Assembly: GCA_944387395.1 (NCBI GenBank)
Contig: CALXEU010000037.1
Span: forward strand, 1-35,566
DNA length: 35,566 nucleotides
Source of the DNA: an uncultured Clostridia bacterium
GTDB lineage: Bacteria; Bacillota; Clostridia; TANB77; CAG-508
Direction of reading: 5' to 3'
Of this stretch, positions 6,612 to 22,167 are shown in pieces (the stretch's first letter is position 1; the number at the start of each line of letters is the position of its first letter). The position numbers and the translations under genes are program-made. Below the pieces are notes generated by a model. The model saw only the letters and a program-made list of their open reading frames with translations. It was not told the DNA's origin and ran no database searches.

Positions 6612-6659
6612 TCCTCTCTTTGGGAAAAATATGTGAAAAACATATTGCCAAGGAGAGGA
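6612..6659 (+). promoter_or_regulatory. Hairpin that pairs with the glucan-synthase ribosome binding site
   Basis: Left arm TCCTCTCTTTGG (6612-6623) pairs with CCAAGGAGAGGA (6648-6659), giving 12 pairs with one G-U. After an internal loop, ATATGT (6629-6634) pairs with ACATAT (6640-6645) around a 5-base loop. The right arm contains the AGGAGAGG ribosome binding site. The stem is followed by TTTTGTTG, so it could also terminate transcription from the permease. A small ORF (6601-6636, MNNIPLFGKNM) runs through the left arm. Confidence 0.7.
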
Positions 6660-6664
6660 TTTTG

Positions 6665-9600
6665 TTGAAAGAAAAAAGAAAATTAAATATAAATGGTGCA
6701 GTTCTAGATAAAAGTCAATTAACTTCTTATTTAGAAAAACTAGCATCTAGCCACATATTAACAGAAAAATCAGAAAAAGAAACATATCCAATTCCAAATT
6801 TATCAGATGATTATGAATTTATAAAACAAACATATAAGCTTTTAAACGAACATGTGAAATTGGAAATACCAATACATCCAGCTGGAGAGTGGATATTAGA
6901 CAATTTTTATATAATAGAAGAAAACGTAAAATCAATTTCTAAAGAACTTACTAAAAAGAAATATATAAAATTTTTAGGACTTGGAAGCGGAATTTATCAG
7001 GGATTTGCAAGAGACTATGTTTTAGCTGCAGAGATTGTCGCGTATACAGATGCAAAAATAGAAGCTGAAAATTTAAAATATATGCTTGAAGCCTATCAAA
7101 CTAAGAAAAAATTAAACATGGACGAAATATGGAGCATAGGAACTTTTATACAAATTGTTCTAATTCAAAATATAAGACAAATATGTGAAACTATATACTT
7201 AGCACAAATGCAAAAATATAAAGTAGAGACAATACTTGCTAAATTCTTTAAAGACGAAAAATCAGAAATAGACTTTAAACAAATCACTCCTAGAAAAAAA
7301 AGCATAATAAAAACAGCACAAATGAAAAATGCTTTTATCGAATATATGTCTTATAAACTAAAAAAATATGGAAGAAAAGCATATAGTTACTTAAATATTC
7401 TAGAAGAAGAAGTGAAAAAAGCTGGGGGAGATATATCAGACATTGTAAAAAAGGAACATTTCGATATTGCAGTTAAGAAAGTCTCTATGGGAAATAGTAT
7501 TATTTCTTTAAAAGAAATATCAAGAATAAATTTTGCAGAGATATTTGAACAAATAAATGGAGTTGAAGAAATATTAAAATTGGATCCAGCGGGTGTCTAT
7601 GAAAAAATGGACATAGATACAAAAGTTTATTATAGAAATTCAATAAAAGAAATTGCTCAGAAAACAAAAATATCAGAAATATATATTGCAAAAAAATGTC
7701 TTGAACTTTGCCAAAAAGAACAAGAAAAATTAGAATCAAGTAAATTAGAAAAAATAACAAAACAAATGCATATAGGATACTATTTAATATCAGAAGGAAA
7801 AGAAAAGTTATTATCAATTCTTCTAAATAAAAATATAAAGATAATGTCAAAAAAATCAAAAATAAGATTATATATTGGAGGAATTTGGGGACTTACTTTT
7901 TTAGGTTCATTAAGCATAGCAATTATAACGTATATAAATTTAAAAGAATATTTTAACAAATTTAGTCCAATATTTTCAGCCATAGTATTTTTATTAGCAT
8001 TAATACCTATGGAAAATATAATCTCTAAAATAGTACAAAATATATTATCCAAAATAGTAAAACCAAAGCCAATCCCAAAATTAGACTTTCAACATGGAAT
8101 TCCTAAAGAATTTTCAACAATGGTTGTAATTCCGACTATAATAAAAAATAAAGAAAAAGTAGAAGAATTAATGAAAAAGTTAGAGGTATACTATATAGCA
8201 AATAAAAGTGATAATATTTATTTTACATTGTTAGGAGACTGTTCAGGAGGATCGAAAGAAAAAGAAGAATTTGATGAAGATGTTATAAAAGAGGGAATAA
8301 ACTGGACTAAAGAATTAAATTTAAAATATAAAGAAAATAAATTCAATTTTATATATAGAAAAAGAATATGGAATCCCAATGAGAGCATTTATATGGGATG
8401 GGAAAGAAAAAGAGGATTGTTAAATCAATTTAATGAATATTTAATAGGAAAAATAAAAGATCCATTTAGAATAAATACAATTGAAAGTAGTAATAGTAAG
8501 CCTAATATAAAATATATAATTACATTAGATGGAGACACAGATTTAATACTAAATTCAGGAATAGAATTAGTGGGTGCAATGGCGCATATTTTAAACAAAC
8601 CGGAATTAAGTAAGGAACAAGATTTAGTAGTTTCAGGACACGCAATAATGCAACCAAGAGTCGGAATTGGATTATTAGAAGGAAGGAAGAGTTTATTTAC
8701 TCAAATATATGCTGGAGAAGCTGGAACAGATTCTTATACAAATGCTATATCTGATATTTATCAGGATAATTTTGATGAAGGAATTTTTACTGGTAAAGGA
8801 ATATATGATTTAAATGTTTTCTCTACAGTACTTAACAATGAAATAAAAGAAAACACAGTTTTAAGTCATGATTTACTTGAGGGTTGTTATTTAAGATGTG
8901 CTGATGTATCAGATATAATGCTTATGGACGGATATCCTAGTAATTATTTAAGCTTTAAGACAAGACTATATAGATGGATCAGAGGTGACTGGCAAGTAAC
9001 ACTTTGGCTTAAATCAAAAATAGAAAATCGAACACACCATATAAAACAAAATCCATTAAATTTTTTAAGTAAATATAAAATATTAAACAATATAATTAGA
9101 AGTAAACTAGAACTTACAGCTCTAATGTTATTAATATTATCGGTATTTACAAATTTATTTTTAAATGTTGATGCATTTGTTATACCAATAATCGCAATAT
9201 TAGCAATTACTATTCAAACATTTATAGATATTATCAATAATATAATAAATACAAAAACAGGAAATATAAAAACTAAAGTATATACAAAAACGATAGATGG
9301 AATAAAAGCGAGCATATTTAGATCTCTTTTGGATTTATCAGTGATTCCAGATAAGGCATATATTTCATTAAAGGCAGAAATAAAAACATTGTATAGAATG
9401 TACAAAAGTAAAATGCATTTATTAGAGTGGATGACCTCAGAAGAAGCGGAAAAAACTACTAAGACAGACATTGTTTCATATTATAAATCTATGTTTATAA
9501 ATGTAATTTTTGCAATTTTTACTCTACTTGGATTTGCAGTTTCAACAACTCTATATACAAAAATCCTGTGTTTATTTTTGGGAACAATGTGGTTAATTGC

Positions 9601-12600
9601 TCCATTTGTGATGTATAAGATAAGCAAAAATATAAAAAGTGAAAAACCTGTTGAAAAAATAAGTAACGAAGATAAAGAATATATAAAACAAATTGCATAT
9701 AAAACATGGTTATATTTTAAAGATAATCTCACAGAAAAGAATAACTATTTACCACCGGATAATTATCAAGAAGATAGAAAACAAAAAACAGCATTAAACA
9801 CTTCGTCAACAAATATAGGATTAGGGCTACTTGCAGTAATGTCTGCAAATGACCTAAAATTTGAGAACTTAAATTATACAATAGATTTACTATATAAAAT
9901 GATAGAAACTATAACAAAAATGCAAAAATGGAATGGACATTTATATAATTGGTATAATATAAGGACATTAGAGCCATTGATTCCTAGATATATTTCGTCT
10001 GTTGATAGTGGAAATTTCGTTGGCTATTTATATGTTACAAGACAGTTCCTTATAGAAAAAGAAAAATGTTGGGAAGAAACCTTACAAGATGAAGATAATA
10101 TATCTGAAAGCACTAAGAATTCAATAATTAGTAATATAAATAAAATAAAAATAATGATAGAACAGATTAATAATCTTATAGATAATACAGATTTTTCTAA
10201 ACTTTATAATGAAAAAAATAGACTATTTTCAGTTGGATACAATATTGAGGACGGAAAACTAACAGACTCATATTATGACTTATTGGCTTCAGAGGCAAGA
10301 CAGACAAGTTTAGTTGCAATTGCAAAAAAAGACGTATCAGAAAAACATTGGTATAATTTGAGTAGAACGTTAACAACACTAAATAATTACAAAGGCCTTA
10401 TATCATGGTCTGGTACTGCATTTGAATATTTAATGCCAAATATAAATATTCCAGGCTACCCTACTAGTATATTAGATGAATCATGTAAATTTATGATAAT
10501 GAGTCAAATAGAATATGCAAAAAGACTAGGAATACCTTGGGGAATTTCAGAGGCTGCATTTAACTTAAAAGATTTAAATAACAATTATCAATATAAAGCG
10601 TTTGGAATACCATGGCTAGGACTAAAAAGAGGTTTATCAGAAGAAATAGTTGTAGCTTCATATGGAACAATACTTGCAATAAATGAAACACCAAACGAGG
10701 TTATTGAAAATTTAAGAGAACTAGAAAATAAAGGAATGTATGATAAATATGGTTTTTATGAATCAATAGATTTCACTCCAGGAAGGAATGAAAAGAACTA
10801 TAGCATTGTAAAAACATATATGGCACATCACCAAGGTTTAATATTACTTTCAATAGATAATTTAATAAACGACAATATATTTCAGACTAGATTTATGAAA
10901 AATCCCGAAATGCAAGCTATAAACATTTTACTACAAGAACGAATGCCAGAAAACATGATAATTACTAAGGAGGAGAAGGAAAAAGTGGATAAAATTGAGT
11001 ATATGGACTATGAAGATTACACTCAAAGAAAATATACTAAAATTAACGATTATTTAAACATCTCCAATGTAATTGCAAATGACAAATATACGATTGTGAT
11101 GGATCAGTATGGTAATGGATATAGCAAATTTGGAGATATTCAAATTAATAGATATAAACCAACAGATGAAATAGATGAGGGAATACTTTTTTATATAAAG
11201 AACATTAAAACTAAAAAGATATGGACAAATAGTGTTACAAGATTTTTGCCAAGACCAGATAGATATTCTGTTATTTTTGCACCCGAGATGAATAAGTTTA
11301 AGAGAATTGACGAAAACATTGAAACATCTACAAGAGTTATAGTTGATACTGATGAACCGGTAGAGGTAAGAACAATAGAATTAAAAAATATTGGAAACAA
11401 TGATGAAATATTAGAGATTACAAGTTATTTAGAACCAATTCTTTCTAATAAAATGCAAGATTTTAGTCATAAGGCATTTAATAATTTGTTTTTAAATTTT
11501 GAATATATAGATGAAATAAATACTGTTTTAGTAAAAAGAAAAGCTCATACAGAAGGAGAAAAAGAATGCTATATGGCTGTTACCGTGAATGCTGGAGGAA
11601 AAGAAGTAGGAGAAATAGAGTACGAAATAGATAAAGAAAAATTTTTTGGACGTGATAATTTTGAAGTGCCAAAGGATGTTCAAAATTCGATACCTCTTAG
11701 TAAAAAAATTAGTTATACTACAGATCCTATTATTGCTATAAGAAGAACAATTGAAATAAAAGCTAATGAAACTACAAGTTTAAACCTTATAATAGCTGTT
11801 TCAGATTCTAGGGAGAAGGTTTTTAAAAATTTAGTTAAATTTACTAACAATGAAAACGTTAAAAGGACAGTTACGCTTTTAAGGGCAAAAAGTGAAGCTG
11901 AAAATAGATATTTAGGGATAAAAGGAAAAGATATAGAAGTTTATCAAAAAATGCTTTCATATTTACTATTTCCACAGAAGGTAGCTACCAAAAGACCTCC
12001 ATTAGGAAAAGTAAGTTTAACAACAAATGAACTTTGGAAATATGGAATATCTGGAGAATTGCCAATACTACTTGTAAAAATAAAAGAAATAAATGATGTA
12101 GATATTATAAAAGAGGTATTGAATGCTTATGAATTCTTTAGGGTTAAAAATATAAGTGTAGATTTAGTAATTTTAAACGAAGAAAAGGAGTCATATGAAA
12201 GCTATGTAAAAGATGCAATATCCTCATGCATTTTAAATAAAAACTTATCTTATTTGTTAAATATTTCTGGAGGAATTTTTTGCTTAAATAATATAGATAA
12301 AGAAGATAAGAAAATGTTAGAGGCAAGAGCAAATTTAATAATAAATGCAAATTATAGTTCTTTGGAATTACAAATGGATGATTATGAAGAAAAAATACTA
12401 GAAAACATAAAAGAAATAGCAATGGACTACAAGCCTAAAATTATAGTAGAAGATAATGATAACAAAATACAAGATCAAGATATGAACAGTTTAAAATATT
12501 ATAATGAGTATGGTGGTTTTTCAGAGGATGGCAAAGAATATATTATAAAAGTAAATAAAGAAAATAGATTACCAACAGTTTGGTGTAATATCCTAGCAAA

Positions 12601-14890
12601 TAAAAACTTTGGAACAATTACAACAGAAGGAATGGGAGGATACACATGGGATAAAAACTGTAGATTAAATAGAATAACTTCATGGTCGAATAATCAAATA
12701 ACTGATGTACCATCGGAGATTGTTTATTTAAAGGATTTAGCTACAAACAAAAAATGGTCTATTGCTGTAAATCCAATGCCAGATGATAACGATTACTATG
12801 TAACGTATGGATTTGGCTATAGTAGATATACTCATAATTCATCAAAAATAAAACAAACACTTGATATGTTTGTCCCTCAAGATGATAATGTTAAAGTAAA
12901 TTTAATAACATTGGAAAATAAAAATCCTGAACGAAAAAAATTAAGACTAATTTACTATATAAAGCCAGTTATAGATGAGGATGAAATAAAATCTAATCAA
13001 AACATTGAACTAGAATTTAATTCAGAATCTAATATGATAATTGCAAAGAATTTAATAAATGAAAATAAATCTCTAATATATGTTTCAAGTAGTGAAAAAA
13101 TAGAATCATATACAGGAAGTAAAACATCATTTTTAAAGAATAGTTCTCTTTCAAATCCTTTAGGATTAGACCAACTAGAATTAAGTAGAGAAAATTCTTA
13201 TGGACAAGATGGAATAATAGCAATTTCAATGAATGTAACAATAGAGGCATATTCAAGTAAACAAATTTCTTTATTTTTAGGTAGTGGAGAGACTTTAGAA
13301 GATATACAAGACATTAGTTATAAATATTCAAATATAAGTAATTGTAAAAGTGAATATCTTAAAACAAGAAAATATTGGAGTGATTTGTTAGATACAATTC
13401 AAGTTTCAACGCCAATGGAATCTACAAATATAATCTTAAACGGATGGCTTATGTATCAACTTATAAATGCAAGGCTTTATGCAAAAACAGGATTTTATCA
13501 ATCTGGAGGTGCTTTTGGATTTAGAGATCAACTGCAAGATACCTTGGCTGCAAAATATGTAGATAGCAATTTTGAAAGAAATCAAATACTAAAACATGCA
13601 GCTAATCAATTTGTAGAAGGTGATGTACAACACTGGTGGCATGAAGAAGTGTCTAGAGGAATTAGAACAAAAATGTCTGATGACTTATTATGGCTTCCAT
13701 ATACAACATACGATTATATAGAATTTACAAATGATTATAAGATATTGGACGAAATTGTACCATATAAAGATGGAAAAGAGCTTTCTGAAAATGAAACAGA
13801 TAGGTATGATGTATATAAAGAATCAGTACAAAAAGGAACATTGTATGAACATTGTATAAAAGCAATAGAAAGGTCACTAAATTTCGGAGAACATGGACTT
13901 CCAAAAATAGGAACAGGTGATTGGAATGATGGAATGAATAAGGTTGGAGAAAAAGGCAAGGGAGAAAGTATATGGCTTGGTTTCTTTATGTATGATGTAT
14001 TAAATAAGTTTATTAAAATATGTGAATATAAAAATGATATAGAAAAAGTAGAAAAATACACAAAAATAATAATTAAATTAAAGAAAGCATTAAATACAGA
14101 AGGTTGGGATAGCCGATGGTATAGACGTGCATTTACAGATGATGGAGATATATTAGGTAGTCTTCAAAATGAAGAGTGCAAAATAGATGGAATTTCTCAA
14201 AGTTGGTCTGTTATATCAGGAGCTGGAGATAATGATAAAAAATATATTGCTATGGATAGTTTAGAAAATCATTTAATAGATAAAGAAATAGGAATAATTA
14301 AATTGCTAGATCCTCCTTTTGAAAAAGGTAAAATAAATCCAGGATATATAAAATCTTATTTGCCTGGAACAAGAGAAAATGGTGGACAATATACACATGC
14401 CGCCATTTGGACCATAATTGCACAAGCCATATTAAATTTAAACGATAAAGCATATGAAAACTTTAGAATGATAAACCCAATAGAACATTCTAGAACAAAA
14501 GTTGAAGCAAACAAATACAAAGTAGAACCATATGTAGTAGCAGCAGACATTTATGGAAAATCAGATTTAGCAGGACGTGGTGGATGGACCTGGTACACGG
14601 GTTCAGCAGCATGGTTATATGTAACAGGAATAAAGTATATTTTAGGATTGAATATAAGTAATGGATATTTAGAAATAAAGCCACATATTCCATCTAGTTG
14701 GAATGATTATCAAATAAAATATAAATTAAATGGAAATATATATAATATAAATGTTATAAACGAGCATAAAAAAAGCACAAATTGTGAACAAACTGTGGAA
14801 AAGCTAATATACAATGGAAAAGAAATAGAAGATAAAAAAATAAAAATAGAAAATAATGCTGGAATATACAATATAGAAGTATATATATAA
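6665..14890 (+). CDS. Cyclic beta-glucan synthase-like giant protein (GT84 + glycoamylase-like + GH94)
   Basis: About 2,741 aa, similar in plan to cyclic beta-1,2-glucan synthases (NdvB/ChvB). TTG at 6665 is chosen over the in-frame TTG at 6620 because AGGAGAGG lies 6 bases upstream and 6620 falls inside the hairpin. N-terminal domain, about 1-400. Membrane segments about 402-424 and 433-452. GT2-fold GT84 domain about 470-800, with LDGDTD near 622 and RWIRGDWQ near 770. Membrane segments about 818-860 and 943-985. Glycoamylase-like cyclisation domain about 1010-1410 (TYMAHHQG near 1386). C-terminal GH94-like half with GDWNDGMN at 2418-2425. By homology it makes a beta-glucan from UDP-glucose at the membrane, trims it and closes it. 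Linkage and product are inferred. A monocistronic unit is likely: a hairpin precedes it and a terminator follows. Confidence 0.9.
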   Translation: MKEKRKLNINGAVLDKSQLTSYLEKLASSHILTEKSEKETYPIPNLSDDYEFIKQTYKLLNEHVKLEIPIHPAGEWILDNFYIIEENVKSISKELTKKKYIKFLGLGSGIYQGFARDYVLAAEIVAYTDAKIEAENLKYMLEAYQTKKKLNMDEIWSIGTFIQIVLIQNIRQICETIYLAQMQKYKVETILAKFFKDEKSEIDFKQITPRKKSIIKTAQMKNAFIEYMSYKLKKYGRKAYSYLNILEEEVKKAGGDISDIVKKEHFDIAVKKVSMGNSIISLKEISRINFAEIFEQINGVEEILKLDPAGVYEKMDIDTKVYYRNSIKEIAQKTKISEIYIAKKCLELCQKEQEKLESSKLEKITKQMHIGYYLISEGKEKLLSILLNKNIKIMSKKSKIRLYIGGIWGLTFLGSLSIAIITYINLKEYFNKFSPIFSAIVFLLALIPMENIISKIVQNILSKIVKPKPIPKLDFQHGIPKEFSTMVVIPTIIKNKEKVEELMKKLEVYYIANKSDNIYFTLLGDCSGGSKEKEEFDEDVIKEGINWTKELNLKYKENKFNFIYRKRIWNPNESIYMGWERKRGLLNQFNEYLIGKIKDPFRINTIESSNSKPNIKYIITLDGDTDLILNSGIELVGAMAHILNKPELSKEQDLVVSGHAIMQPRVGIGLLEGRKSLFTQIYAGEAGTDSYTNAISDIYQDNFDEGIFTGKGIYDLNVFSTVLNNEIKENTVLSHDLLEGCYLRCADVSDIMLMDGYPSNYLSFKTRLYRWIRGDWQVTLWLKSKIENRTHHIKQNPLNFLSKYKILNNIIRSKLELTALMLLILSVFTNLFLNVDAFVIPIIAILAITIQTFIDIINNIINTKTGNIKTKVYTKTIDGIKASIFRSLLDLSVIPDKAYISLKAEIKTLYRMYKSKMHLLEWMTSEEAEKTTKTDIVSYYKSMFINVIFAIFTLLGFAVSTTLYTKILCLFLGTMWLIAPFVMYKISKNIKSEKPVEKISNEDKEYIKQIAYKTWLYFKDNLTEKNNYLPPDNYQEDRKQKTALNTSSTNIGLGLLAVMSANDLKFENLNYTIDLLYKMIETITKMQKWNGHLYNWYNIRTLEPLIPRYISSVDSGNFVGYLYVTRQFLIEKEKCWEETLQDEDNISESTKNSIISNINKIKIMIEQINNLIDNTDFSKLYNEKNRLFSVGYNIEDGKLTDSYYDLLASEARQTSLVAIAKKDVSEKHWYNLSRTLTTLNNYKGLISWSGTAFEYLMPNINIPGYPTSILDESCKFMIMSQIEYAKRLGIPWGISEAAFNLKDLNNNYQYKAFGIPWLGLKRGLSEEIVVASYGTILAINETPNEVIENLRELENKGMYDKYGFYESIDFTPGRNEKNYSIVKTYMAHHQGLILLSIDNLINDNIFQTRFMKNPEMQAINILLQERMPENMIITKEEKEKVDKIEYMDYEDYTQRKYTKINDYLNISNVIANDKYTIVMDQYGNGYSKFGDIQINRYKPTDEIDEGILFYIKNIKTKKIWTNSVTRFLPRPDRYSVIFAPEMNKFKRIDENIETSTRVIVDTDEPVEVRTIELKNIGNNDEILEITSYLEPILSNKMQDFSHKAFNNLFLNFEYIDEINTVLVKRKAHTEGEKECYMAVTVNAGGKEVGEIEYEIDKEKFFGRDNFEVPKDVQNSIPLSKKISYTTDPIIAIRRTIEIKANETTSLNLIIAVSDSREKVFKNLVKFTNNENVKRTVTLLRAKSEAENRYLGIKGKDIEVYQKMLSYLLFPQKVATKRPPLGKVSLTTNELWKYGISGELPILLVKIKEINDVDIIKEVLNAYEFFRVKNISVDLVILNEEKESYESYVKDAISSCILNKNLSYLLNISGGIFCLNNIDKEDKKMLEARANLIINANYSSLELQMDDYEEKILENIKEIAMDYKPKIIVEDNDNKIQDQDMNSLKYYNEYGGFSEDGKEYIIKVNKENRLPTVWCNILANKNFGTITTEGMGGYTWDKNCRLNRITSWSNNQITDVPSEIVYLKDLATNKKWSIAVNPMPDDNDYYVTYGFGYSRYTHNSSKIKQTLDMFVPQDDNVKVNLITLENKNPERKKLRLIYYIKPVIDEDEIKSNQNIELEFNSESNMIIAKNLINENKSLIYVSSSEKIESYTGSKTSFLKNSSLSNPLGLDQLELSRENSYGQDGIIAISMNVTIEAYSSKQISLFLGSGETLEDIQDISYKYSNISNCKSEYLKTRKYWSDLLDTIQVSTPMESTNIILNGWLMYQLINARLYAKTGFYQSGGAFGFRDQLQDTLAAKYVDSNFERNQILKHAANQFVEGDVQHWWHEEVSRGIRTKMSDDLLWLPYTTYDYIEFTNDYKILDEIVPYKDGKELSENETDRYDVYKESVQKGTLYEHCIKAIERSLNFGEHGLPKIGTGDWNDGMNKVGEKGKGESIWLGFFMYDVLNKFIKICEYKNDIEKVEKYTKIIIKLKKALNTEGWDSRWYRRAFTDDGDILGSLQNEECKIDGISQSWSVISGAGDNDKKYIAMDSLENHLIDKEIGIIKLLDPPFEKGKINPGYIKSYLPGTRENGGQYTHAAIWTIIAQAILNLNDKAYENFRMINPIEHSRTKVEANKYKVEPYVVAADIYGKSDLAGRGGWTWYTGSAAWLYVTGIKYILGLNISNGYLEIKPHIPSSWNDYQIKYKLNGNIYNINVINEHKKSTNCEQTVEKLIYNGKEIEDKKIKIENNAGIYNIEVYI

Positions 14891-20757: not shown

Positions 20758-22167
20758 TTATTTCTTTAATAAACTATTAATAAGTCCGCAACACTCTTTT
20801 CCCTCATAGCATACTAAATCTGTCATGCAAGTAGGCCCAAGACCTTTTCCTAAAAGAGGAGCTACTTGTTTTACTTGATTTGCAATCTCTTTTGCAATAT
20901 TTCTTATTTGCCATTGTGCCTTGGTACAACATCTCATTCGTAAAATCCATTGCAAAGATCTTCCGTTTATTGTTGTAACAACATTAAGCATTTGACATCC
21001 TAAGTAAAAATAAATCAAATCAGCTTCATAAATATCTAAGTTTTTAAACTGTTCATAAACTTCTAAGTTTTTAGAAATAGCATTATTATACATTTCAAGA
21101 GATGAAGCTGAAGCTTTTATCGTTGGAGGTGTAATATAATTTCTTAAATCCCACATACTCAAGAAATTAGGAATTAATAAAGAATGCATTCTGTGTCTTG
21201 TTAAATGTGTAAGAATAGATAATGATATAGGTATTTGGAAAGAAAAGCTTACTTGTTCTAATTCTCTACGAGCTTGTTTATGCAAAATTATATTCATTAA
21301 ATTTTCTTTGTAATTAGGATCTTTCATTGCCAACTTTTCTTGTATTTCAGATGCAACTTCTTTAGAACATTGGTAATTATACATAATACAAGACTTTACA
21401 ATAACATCATCAGGGTTAGGTGTATAACTTAAAAGCTTTGGTTTATCTAGAATTTTAATATCAGGTCTTTCATAAAGCGAACTTAAATATGTGTAGTCAT
21501 CATTTGAAGATTTTTCTGAATTTTCAATACTATCTATTAAATAAGGTACATATTCCTTTACTATATTATAAAGTTTTTCTCCAAATTCTCTAAGCTCAGA
21601 AATTTTACTTAAGTGGCCATTCAGTAGTGAGCAAATTAGATTCTCTAAATTTCTAGCATCTAGGCCCATAATTATATTACTATAAAAAGAATATGGAAGT
21701 ACAAATCTTGCATCTTCAACATCAATTCCTGAATCAACTAAATCACCATAAGTGTTAAACAAGAACTTCATGTGTTTAACGTAAATATCTTGTAATTTTT
21801 CGTTATCTTTATGTGGGGTTCCATCAGTATTTCTAAATTCAGGAATATAAAAATTAACATTTCTAAAATCAACTTCACGCCTAGATTTTATAGTAAATGA
21901 TGTTAATCTATTTCCAATTATGGTTTGTTCAACAATTGGTGTAACATCACAAATAGCAAATACTAGATAATCGTGTTCAATAATTGATTTATGTCCCATT
22001 TTAATAATGCGTTTAATTAGATTTAAATTTTTTTCATAATCATTACAACTTTCTAAAACTTCAAAAACATTTCCAGGAAATCTTGAAAGCTTTCCTGCTG
22101 CAGCTACTTTTTGAATTCTAGATTCTAGTTCATCTTTAGAACATCCGCCTAATAACTTAATTTCCAT
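20758..22167 (-). CDS. thyX: Tandem-duplicated FAD-dependent thymidylate synthase
   Basis: A 469-aa protein, about twice the usual ThyX length of 210-250. ThyX methylates dUMP to dTMP with methylene-tetrahydrofolate, FAD and NADPH. Two ThyX-like copies can be aligned. N-copy (about 1-240): GHKSIIEHDYLVFAI, then GNR (85-87) and S-R-R (95-97), then LPYSFYSN...LDARNL. C-copy (about 250-440): ARRELEQVSFSFQI, RHR (324-326), then N334 and L336, INGRSLQWILRMR and AQWQIR. The signature RHR-x7-S-x-R is split: the N-copy keeps S-x-R and the C-copy keeps RHR and AQWxIR. The tail CMTDLVCYEGKECCG matches the Cys-rich end seen in some clostridial ThyX proteins. Probably functional as a pseudo-dimer (inference). 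Its promoter carries a perfect palindrome. Confidence 0.85.
   Translation of the reverse strand: MEIKLLGGCSKDELESRIQKVAAAGKLSRFPGNVFEVLESCNDYEKNLNLIKRIIKMGHKSIIEHDYLVFAICDVTPIVEQTIIGNRLTSFTIKSRREVDFRNVNFYIPEFRNTDGTPHKDNEKLQDIYVKHMKFLFNTYGDLVDSGIDVEDARFVLPYSFYSNIIMGLDARNLENLICSLLNGHLSKISELREFGEKLYNIVKEYVPYLIDSIENSEKSSNDDYTYLSSLYERPDIKILDKPKLLSYTPNPDDVIVKSCIMYNYQCSKEVASEIQEKLAMKDPNYKENLMNIILHKQARRELEQVSFSFQIPISLSILTHLTRHRMHSLLIPNFLSMWDLRNYITPPTIKASASSLEMYNNAISKNLEVYEQFKNLDIYEADLIYFYLGCQMLNVVTTINGRSLQWILRMRCCTKAQWQIRNIAKEIANQVKQVAPLLGKGLGPTCMTDLVCYEGKECCGLINSLLKK

Follow-up and report, generated by a model that had tools for sequence, protein, structure and literature searches.

A main result of the analysis conducted here is that the double-length thyX gene of the window (the whole stretch of DNA that was analysed, 35,566 nucleotides from an uncultured Clostridia bacterium) can with good confidence be read, from its residue pattern, as encoding an active flavin-dependent thymidylate synthase in which two fused ThyX domains divide one active site between them. 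A pair of such chains would very probably hold two shared active sites, as opposed to four in ordinary ThyX. The pattern lends support to an earlier note on this DNA, which had proposed a fused ThyX with composite sites. That note had also spoken of subfunctionalisation rather than simple decay; the term fits the distribution of residues, which leaves either an adaptive process or a neutral ratchet behind it.

The gene (20758..22167, minus strand, on which all its features described below also lie) has an ATG start, encodes 469 amino acids with no internal stops and is annotated as a class I double-length flavin-dependent thymidylate synthase on the basis of the reading frame, two PF02511 matches and the TIGR02170 equivalog. 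PF02511 (Thy1) matches the frame with E-values of 1.1e-30 for the C-terminal copy (C-copy) and 1.6e-27 for the N-terminal copy (N-copy), and the whole protein exceeds the curated cut-offs of both PF02511 (198 vs 24.8 bits) and TIGR02170 (135 vs 87.9 bits). The N-copy domain spans residues 20-212 (21532..22110), scores 92 bits with a local single-ThyX profile and aligns with T. maritima ThyX 1kq4 (2.8e-11). The C-copy domain spans residues 242-466 (20770..21444) and scores 134 bits with the same kind of profile, and residues 239-451 of the structural model match ThyX structures. The claim that one chain holds two ThyX copies is thus borne out by two matches to the Pfam family and two to the single-ThyX profile. 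The same stretch also carries, at 6620-14890 on the plus strand, an open reading frame of 2756 amino acids with a TTG start.

Neither copy has a contiguous RHR-x7-S-x-R signature; its halves are split between the two, and the window protein is therefore filed as a ThyX variant rather than a typical member of the family. It fits a class that we propose, the composite-site double-length ThyX, whose N-copy has S-x-R and R147 but neither R78 nor R174 and whose C-copy shows the opposite set. In alignment with T. maritima ThyX, the N-copy reads G85-N86-R87 (21907..21915) where RHR has been lost, the first arginine being gone in 63/63 double-length proteins, and retains S-x-R as S95-R96-R97, followed by E98 at the lid tyrosine position (21874..21885; S and R in 63/63 N-copies). 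Conversely, the C-copy retains R324-H325-R326 (21190..21198; 63/63 C-copies), the motif that contacts FAD, and N1/O2 of the isoalloxazine, and reads N334-F335-L336-S337 (21157..21168) where S-x-R-Y has been lost. The spacing of the two half-motifs is ten residues in both copies, like that of R78 and S88 in T. maritima. Also confined to the C-copy are R412 (20932..20934; T. maritima R174, Mtb R199), which activates dUMP and is kept in 63/63 C-copies and 0/63 N-copies, and, five residues further on, the A417-Q-W-Q-I-R422 helix (20902..20919). The residue readings of the earlier note prove exact, as does its statement that S-x-R is found only in the N-copy and the full RHR and AQWxIR helix only in the C-copy. 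It had overlooked two features: the N-copy alone retains the H53, T/S55 and E-D-A-R positions, and the lid tyrosine (T. maritima Y91) is gone from both copies, E98 standing in its place in the N-copy and S337 in the C-copy. The former comprise H59-K-S61-I-I-E64 (21976..21993; T. maritima H53, T55 and E58), whose H and S are gone from the C-copy, and R154 of E-D-A-R (21706..21708; T. maritima R147), kept in 63/63 N-copies and 2/63 C-copies. Equivalents of R78, H79, R80, R174, S88, R90, R147, T55 and R165 are all present somewhere in the window protein, and the sole change among the FAD- and dUMP-contacting side chains scored is that of the lid Y91 to Glu. The arginine that binds the dUMP phosphate in Mtb ThyX (R87) is absent from class I, as it is from T. 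maritima ThyX (I70).

Six classes of double-length ThyX emerged from surveying 398 genomes from the phylum and the order, as well as plasmids and virus-labelled contigs. The window's own family, together with its relatives, makes up class I. Plasmids of Bacillus licheniformis and Paenibacillus are among the sources of class II, other families of the phylum supplied classes III and IV, and the class VI sequences are those found on Miltoncostaea, Euzebya and Parabacteroides plasmids. Class V, of about 390 amino acids, is common in the window's own order (about 35/143 genomes; L201-L216) and scores weakly with Pfam and below the NCBIfam cut-off, so that motif filters would miss it. Residues were counted in T. 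maritima numbering over 63 aligned double-length proteins of the six classes, with 28 single ThyX for comparison, in which R78, R174, H79, S88, R90, R147 and Y91 are all kept (28/28). R78 and R174 are kept in 63/63 C-copies and 0/63 N-copies, and H79 in 63/63 and 3/63, respectively. The opposite distribution is seen for S88, R90 and R147, each kept in 63/63 N-copies and in only 7, 1 and 2 of the 63 C-copies, and for Y91, kept in 46/63 N-copies and 0/63 C-copies. A split found in 63 of 63 proteins is far beyond chance. The earlier note had made its reading depend on the conservation of both half-motifs among double-length homologues; both are kept throughout the aligned set, R78 and R174 in the C-copy and S88 and R90 in the N-copy, and the equivalents of S95 and R97, far from being freely lost, persist in every N-copy.

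The close relatives of the window protein (53-74% identity) retain both half-motifs without exception, and an additional class I member outside the 63-protein count (L197) carries RQR in its C-copy. Of 39 further virus-labelled loci, many of them on contigs of 200-530 kb, 38 are double-length and carry RHR only in the second half, and 37 of these 38 have S-x-R-Y in the first half; none of the 39 has a reversed or intact motif layout. In classes II and III, the equivalent of Mtb R87 is likewise kept by N-copies and lost by C-copies. As read from these alignments, the split recurs in about 100 bacterial and large-phage relatives, which are related proteins and not independent events, yet the pattern has survived very deep divergence. 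Other positions are more variable. Glu replaces the lid tyrosine in 15/25 class I proteins (residue 98 of the window protein, codon 21874-21876), a change limited to the window's family and one sister family, the remaining class I proteins having Tyr. The T55/R165 pair reside in the N-copy in classes I, II, IV and V, in the C-copy in class III and in a mixed arrangement in class VI, with R165 present in both copies in class I and scattered losses of R165 in classes II, IV and V. Since these residues, which belong to subunit B of the ordinary site, sort unevenly among the classes, the geometry of the site cannot be identical in all of them. Symmetry predicts that T55 and R165 travel together, as they do in class III and, those losses apart, in classes II, IV and V; with class VI mixed, they were dropped as a proof.

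Several loci encountered in the survey merit separate mention. In L181 (G177:C1:173800-178700), an insertion of about 3 kb breaks up a class III double thyX directly behind the E-D-A-R codons of its N-copy; it encodes a reverse transcriptase/maturase of 620 amino acids whose C-terminal part is HNH-like, and it resembles a group II intron. A class I double thyX was also found in L178 (MT835736.1, 13515-19785), labelled Bacteriophage sp. and derived from human faeces, with a thymidylate kinase-like reading frame nearby on the opposite strand; this may be a mislabelled bacterial contig. Five genomes with two Thy1 matches (G037, G079, G176, G341 and G392) were rejected as tandems, each having a single ThyX with an insert. 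In L074, L075, L076 and L079 (G079, G037, G341 and G176, respectively), the single ThyX carries an insert of about 150 amino acids behind S-L-R-Y-N-N-P-F, immediately downstream of the signature motif, possibly an insertion domain or a mini-intein.

The significance of the split becomes apparent when it is set against the architecture of the ordinary enzyme. In Mtb and H. pylori ThyX each active site is built by three subunits: subunit A provides RHR and R199 (T. maritima R174), subunit B the FAD-phosphate contacts S71 and R190 (T. maritima T55 and R165), and subunit C holds dUMP through R87, S105, R107 and the lid Y108 (PMC6514825). Similarly, Arg182 and Ser88 of PBCV-1 ThyX lie on different monomers (PMC3498832). 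The literature thus upholds the premise that ThyX sites are assembled from several subunits, with the two half-motifs coming from different subunits around one FAD/dUMP pair (PMC6514825, PMC3498832). To judge from the alignment, the C-copy has retained the subunit-A residues and the N-copy those of subunit C, so that the split follows real subunit borders. This is the partition that composite sites need, and not what the decay of one copy leaves.

We suggest that two chains associate as a pseudo-tetramer that corresponds to the homotetramer of ordinary ThyX. The C-copy would act as subunit A, with R324-H325-R326 holding FAD and contacting dUMP and R412 activating dUMP, and an N-copy as subunit C, with S95 and R97 holding dUMP and E98 at the lid position. 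In the window family the T55 equivalent is found in the N-copy only (S61) and that of R165 in both copies (R172 and R403); hence an N-copy can also play the part of subunit B, in which S61 and R172 would sit on the FAD phosphates. The outcome would be two composite sites per dimer and one FAD per 469-aa chain, and the remaining two positions, where GNR of the N-copy would face NFLS of the C-copy, would be dead. The chemistry is presumed to be that of ordinary ThyX, in which FADH- accepts the methylene of CH2-THF and hands it on to dUMP, here activated by R412. A point against an active enzyme is the absence of the lid tyrosine from the window's clade. In T. maritima ThyX, Y91 has been proposed as the general acid, and the Y91A variant is strongly impaired (PMC8316439); by analogy, the Glu found at the lid position in the window's clade could serve as the acid.

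Structure prediction provides a partial view of this arrangement. AlphaFold reached a pLDDT of 79 and a pTM of 0.77 for the window protein with 27 aligned rows, single viral ThyX included, and a pLDDT of 48 with six double-length sequences alone. The C-half of the model matches ThyX crystal structures (Z 14.9, 2.5-2.8 A) and the Foldseek/VIA structure matches fall mainly on residues 239-451; the ThyX fold is recognised by structure match in the C-half and by sequence profile only in the N-half. All ThyX structures matched are single-length, and no solved double-length ThyX was found among them.

The genomic context suggests that the gene is in use. The window's genome is rated 100% complete (86 contigs), and thyA, another thyX and thymidine kinase (tdk) were all searched for in it and not found, making the window gene its only recognisable dTMP source. 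In its two sampled congeners the place of this gene is taken by a single thyX of the ordinary type. A count over 143 genomes of the order gave 14 with class I, 51 with canonical thyA, 20 with single thyX and 35 with class V, and the 14 class I carriers overlap with none of the other three groups (expected 5.0, 2.0 and 3.4, respectively; P = 2.6e-9 for zero overlap with any of 103 genomes, a figure that is not corrected for phylogeny). The estimated dN/dS is about 0.2 and similar in both halves of the gene, a sign of purifying selection; the earlier note had pointed to a second functional thymidylate synthase, with this gene under no selection, as the finding that would undermine its reading. 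The absence of another dTMP source, the zero overlap with thyA and thyX and the dN/dS value together suggest, indirectly, a gene that behaves as a working alternative thymidylate synthase. In 26/143 genomes of the order no thymidylate synthase was found, and 12 of these 26 also lack tdk. The type of thymidylate synthase (thyA, single thyX, class I, class V or none found) varies across these 143 genomes even among species of one genus. Weighing somewhat against the reading of an active enzyme, one genome, G499, carries a double thyX together with a divergent ThyA-like reading frame of about 209 amino acids (L220, G499:C57:10000-12000), which is not canonical ThyA; its weak thyA match was considered as a pseudogene and this was rejected, the frame being open and without a clear break.

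These results bear on several other explanations. An assembly or annotation artefact, namely a chimeric gene in a metagenome-assembled genome, might be suspected from the metagenome-style, 86-contig assembly, but it is refuted by the presence of a stop-free double gene in 14 or more genomes of the order, as well as in independent records that share 53-74% identity, and its probability is negligible. It is also highly improbable that only one copy works as the enzyme while the other has decayed into a structural or regulatory passenger. The C-copy would be the natural candidate for the enzyme, as it scores higher against ordinary ThyX (134 vs 92 bits) and keeps RHR, R174 and the AQWxIR helix, but it lacks S88, R90, Y91 and R147 in essentially all members, the N-copy has kept its S, R and R147 in 63/63 proteins, and, by pN between the window protein and L003, the N-half (0.134) is not evolving faster than the C-half (0.159).

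Slim, too, is the probability that the double protein has left thymidylate synthesis to act on some related substrate, in the manner of PolB, a UMP/dUMP methylase, or of the atypical C. glutamicum ThyX, without which dTMP can still be made. Relatives of the PolB/C. glutamicum type do occur among the solved structures matched, and both the lid Tyr to Glu change and the absence of Mtb R87 from class I could be taken in this sense, though T. maritima ThyX also lacks the latter. Nonetheless, all other dUMP- and FAD-contacting side chains are retained, no dTMP source other than the double thyX could be recognised in the window's genome, and across the order this gene stands in for thyA or single thyX without co-occurring with either. 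A less remote, if still unlikely, explanation accepts the composite site as real and places it within one chain, as a pseudo-dimer monomer, or in some oligomer other than the two-chain pseudo-tetramer. The pTM of the full-length model does suggest a defined packing of both domains, but a two-domain chain cannot supply the three subunits that an ordinary site needs (PMC6514825).

The origin of the proposed two-chain enzyme was approached through trees of N- and C-copies built with the motif columns left out, in which, class by class, the N-copies group together in one clade and the C-copies in another. Classes II, IV and VI trace to one common fusion (N clade 100/98, C clade 96/97), all N-copies fall weakly on one side of the best tree (43/92) and the AU test allows all C-copies to form a single clade (p = 0.40). 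For the six classes as a whole the trees are compatible with either one ancient fusion or a recent origin within each class, neither of which is shown or rejected. In L198-L200 the N-copy reads E-H-R, the first arginine having been lost ahead of the rest of the motif, as expected for an early disabling of one of two redundant sites, and the gene neighbourhood of double thyX differs in every relative, as expected for a gene moving alone. The case appears evenly balanced for a broader scenario in which an ancient duplication and fusion turned homotetrameric ThyX into a widespread dimeric class with obligately trans-complementing half-sites, its N-copies always carrying the dUMP half and its C-copies the flavin half, a class which spread as a single gene among bacteria, plasmids and jumbo phages, and in which the window's clade replaced the lid Tyr with Glu, placing a carboxylate at the proposed general-acid position.

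Known systems offer several points of comparison. Homotetrameric ThyX/FDTS (T. maritima TM0449, Mtb, H. pylori, PBCV-1) shares with the window protein the fold, the FAD and dUMP residues and, presumably, the reaction, and its sites are already shared by three subunits (PMC6514825). Those sites are four and identical, in identical chains of about 230 amino acids, whereas in the window protein, as far as its residues allow one to judge, the copies differ, neither motif is complete and no more than two sites could function in each dimer. The double-length proteins annotated as FAD-dependent thymidylate synthase in Bacillus licheniformis, Paenibacillus, Miltoncostaea, Euzebya and Parabacteroides plasmids and in jumbo-phage contigs show the same complementary partition, but they are very divergent from the window protein, bear N-terminal extensions and distribute the subunit-B residues differently. 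Microcystis phage LMM01 A0A7D4 is likened to double-length ThyX by fold match alone. The ThyX of Chlamydia trachomatis is longer than usual. It has been purified and assayed (PMC3498832). Our literature search, in which subscription journals were sparsely covered and an earlier mention is possible, found no description of tandem, fused or duplicated ThyX or of the partition of its motif. More generally, enzymes that arose by duplication and fusion and whose sites are complementary or half dead exemplify the degenerative division of a homomeric site after duplication, a process that one study has reportedly modelled for heteromers, and the window ThyX shows the same principle.

ThyX is an antibiotic target, and its three-subunit site is hard to dissect because all subunits are identical. 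With the flavin and nucleotide halves on distinguishable domains, each could be mutated alone, the roles of subunits A, B and C could be assigned, and the active sites of a double ThyX could be counted as two, not four. The analysis also corrects the view of double ThyX proteins that fail the RHR-x7-S-x-R motif as decayed: motif filters would discard them, though they are apparently the only thymidylate synthase of some gut bacteria.
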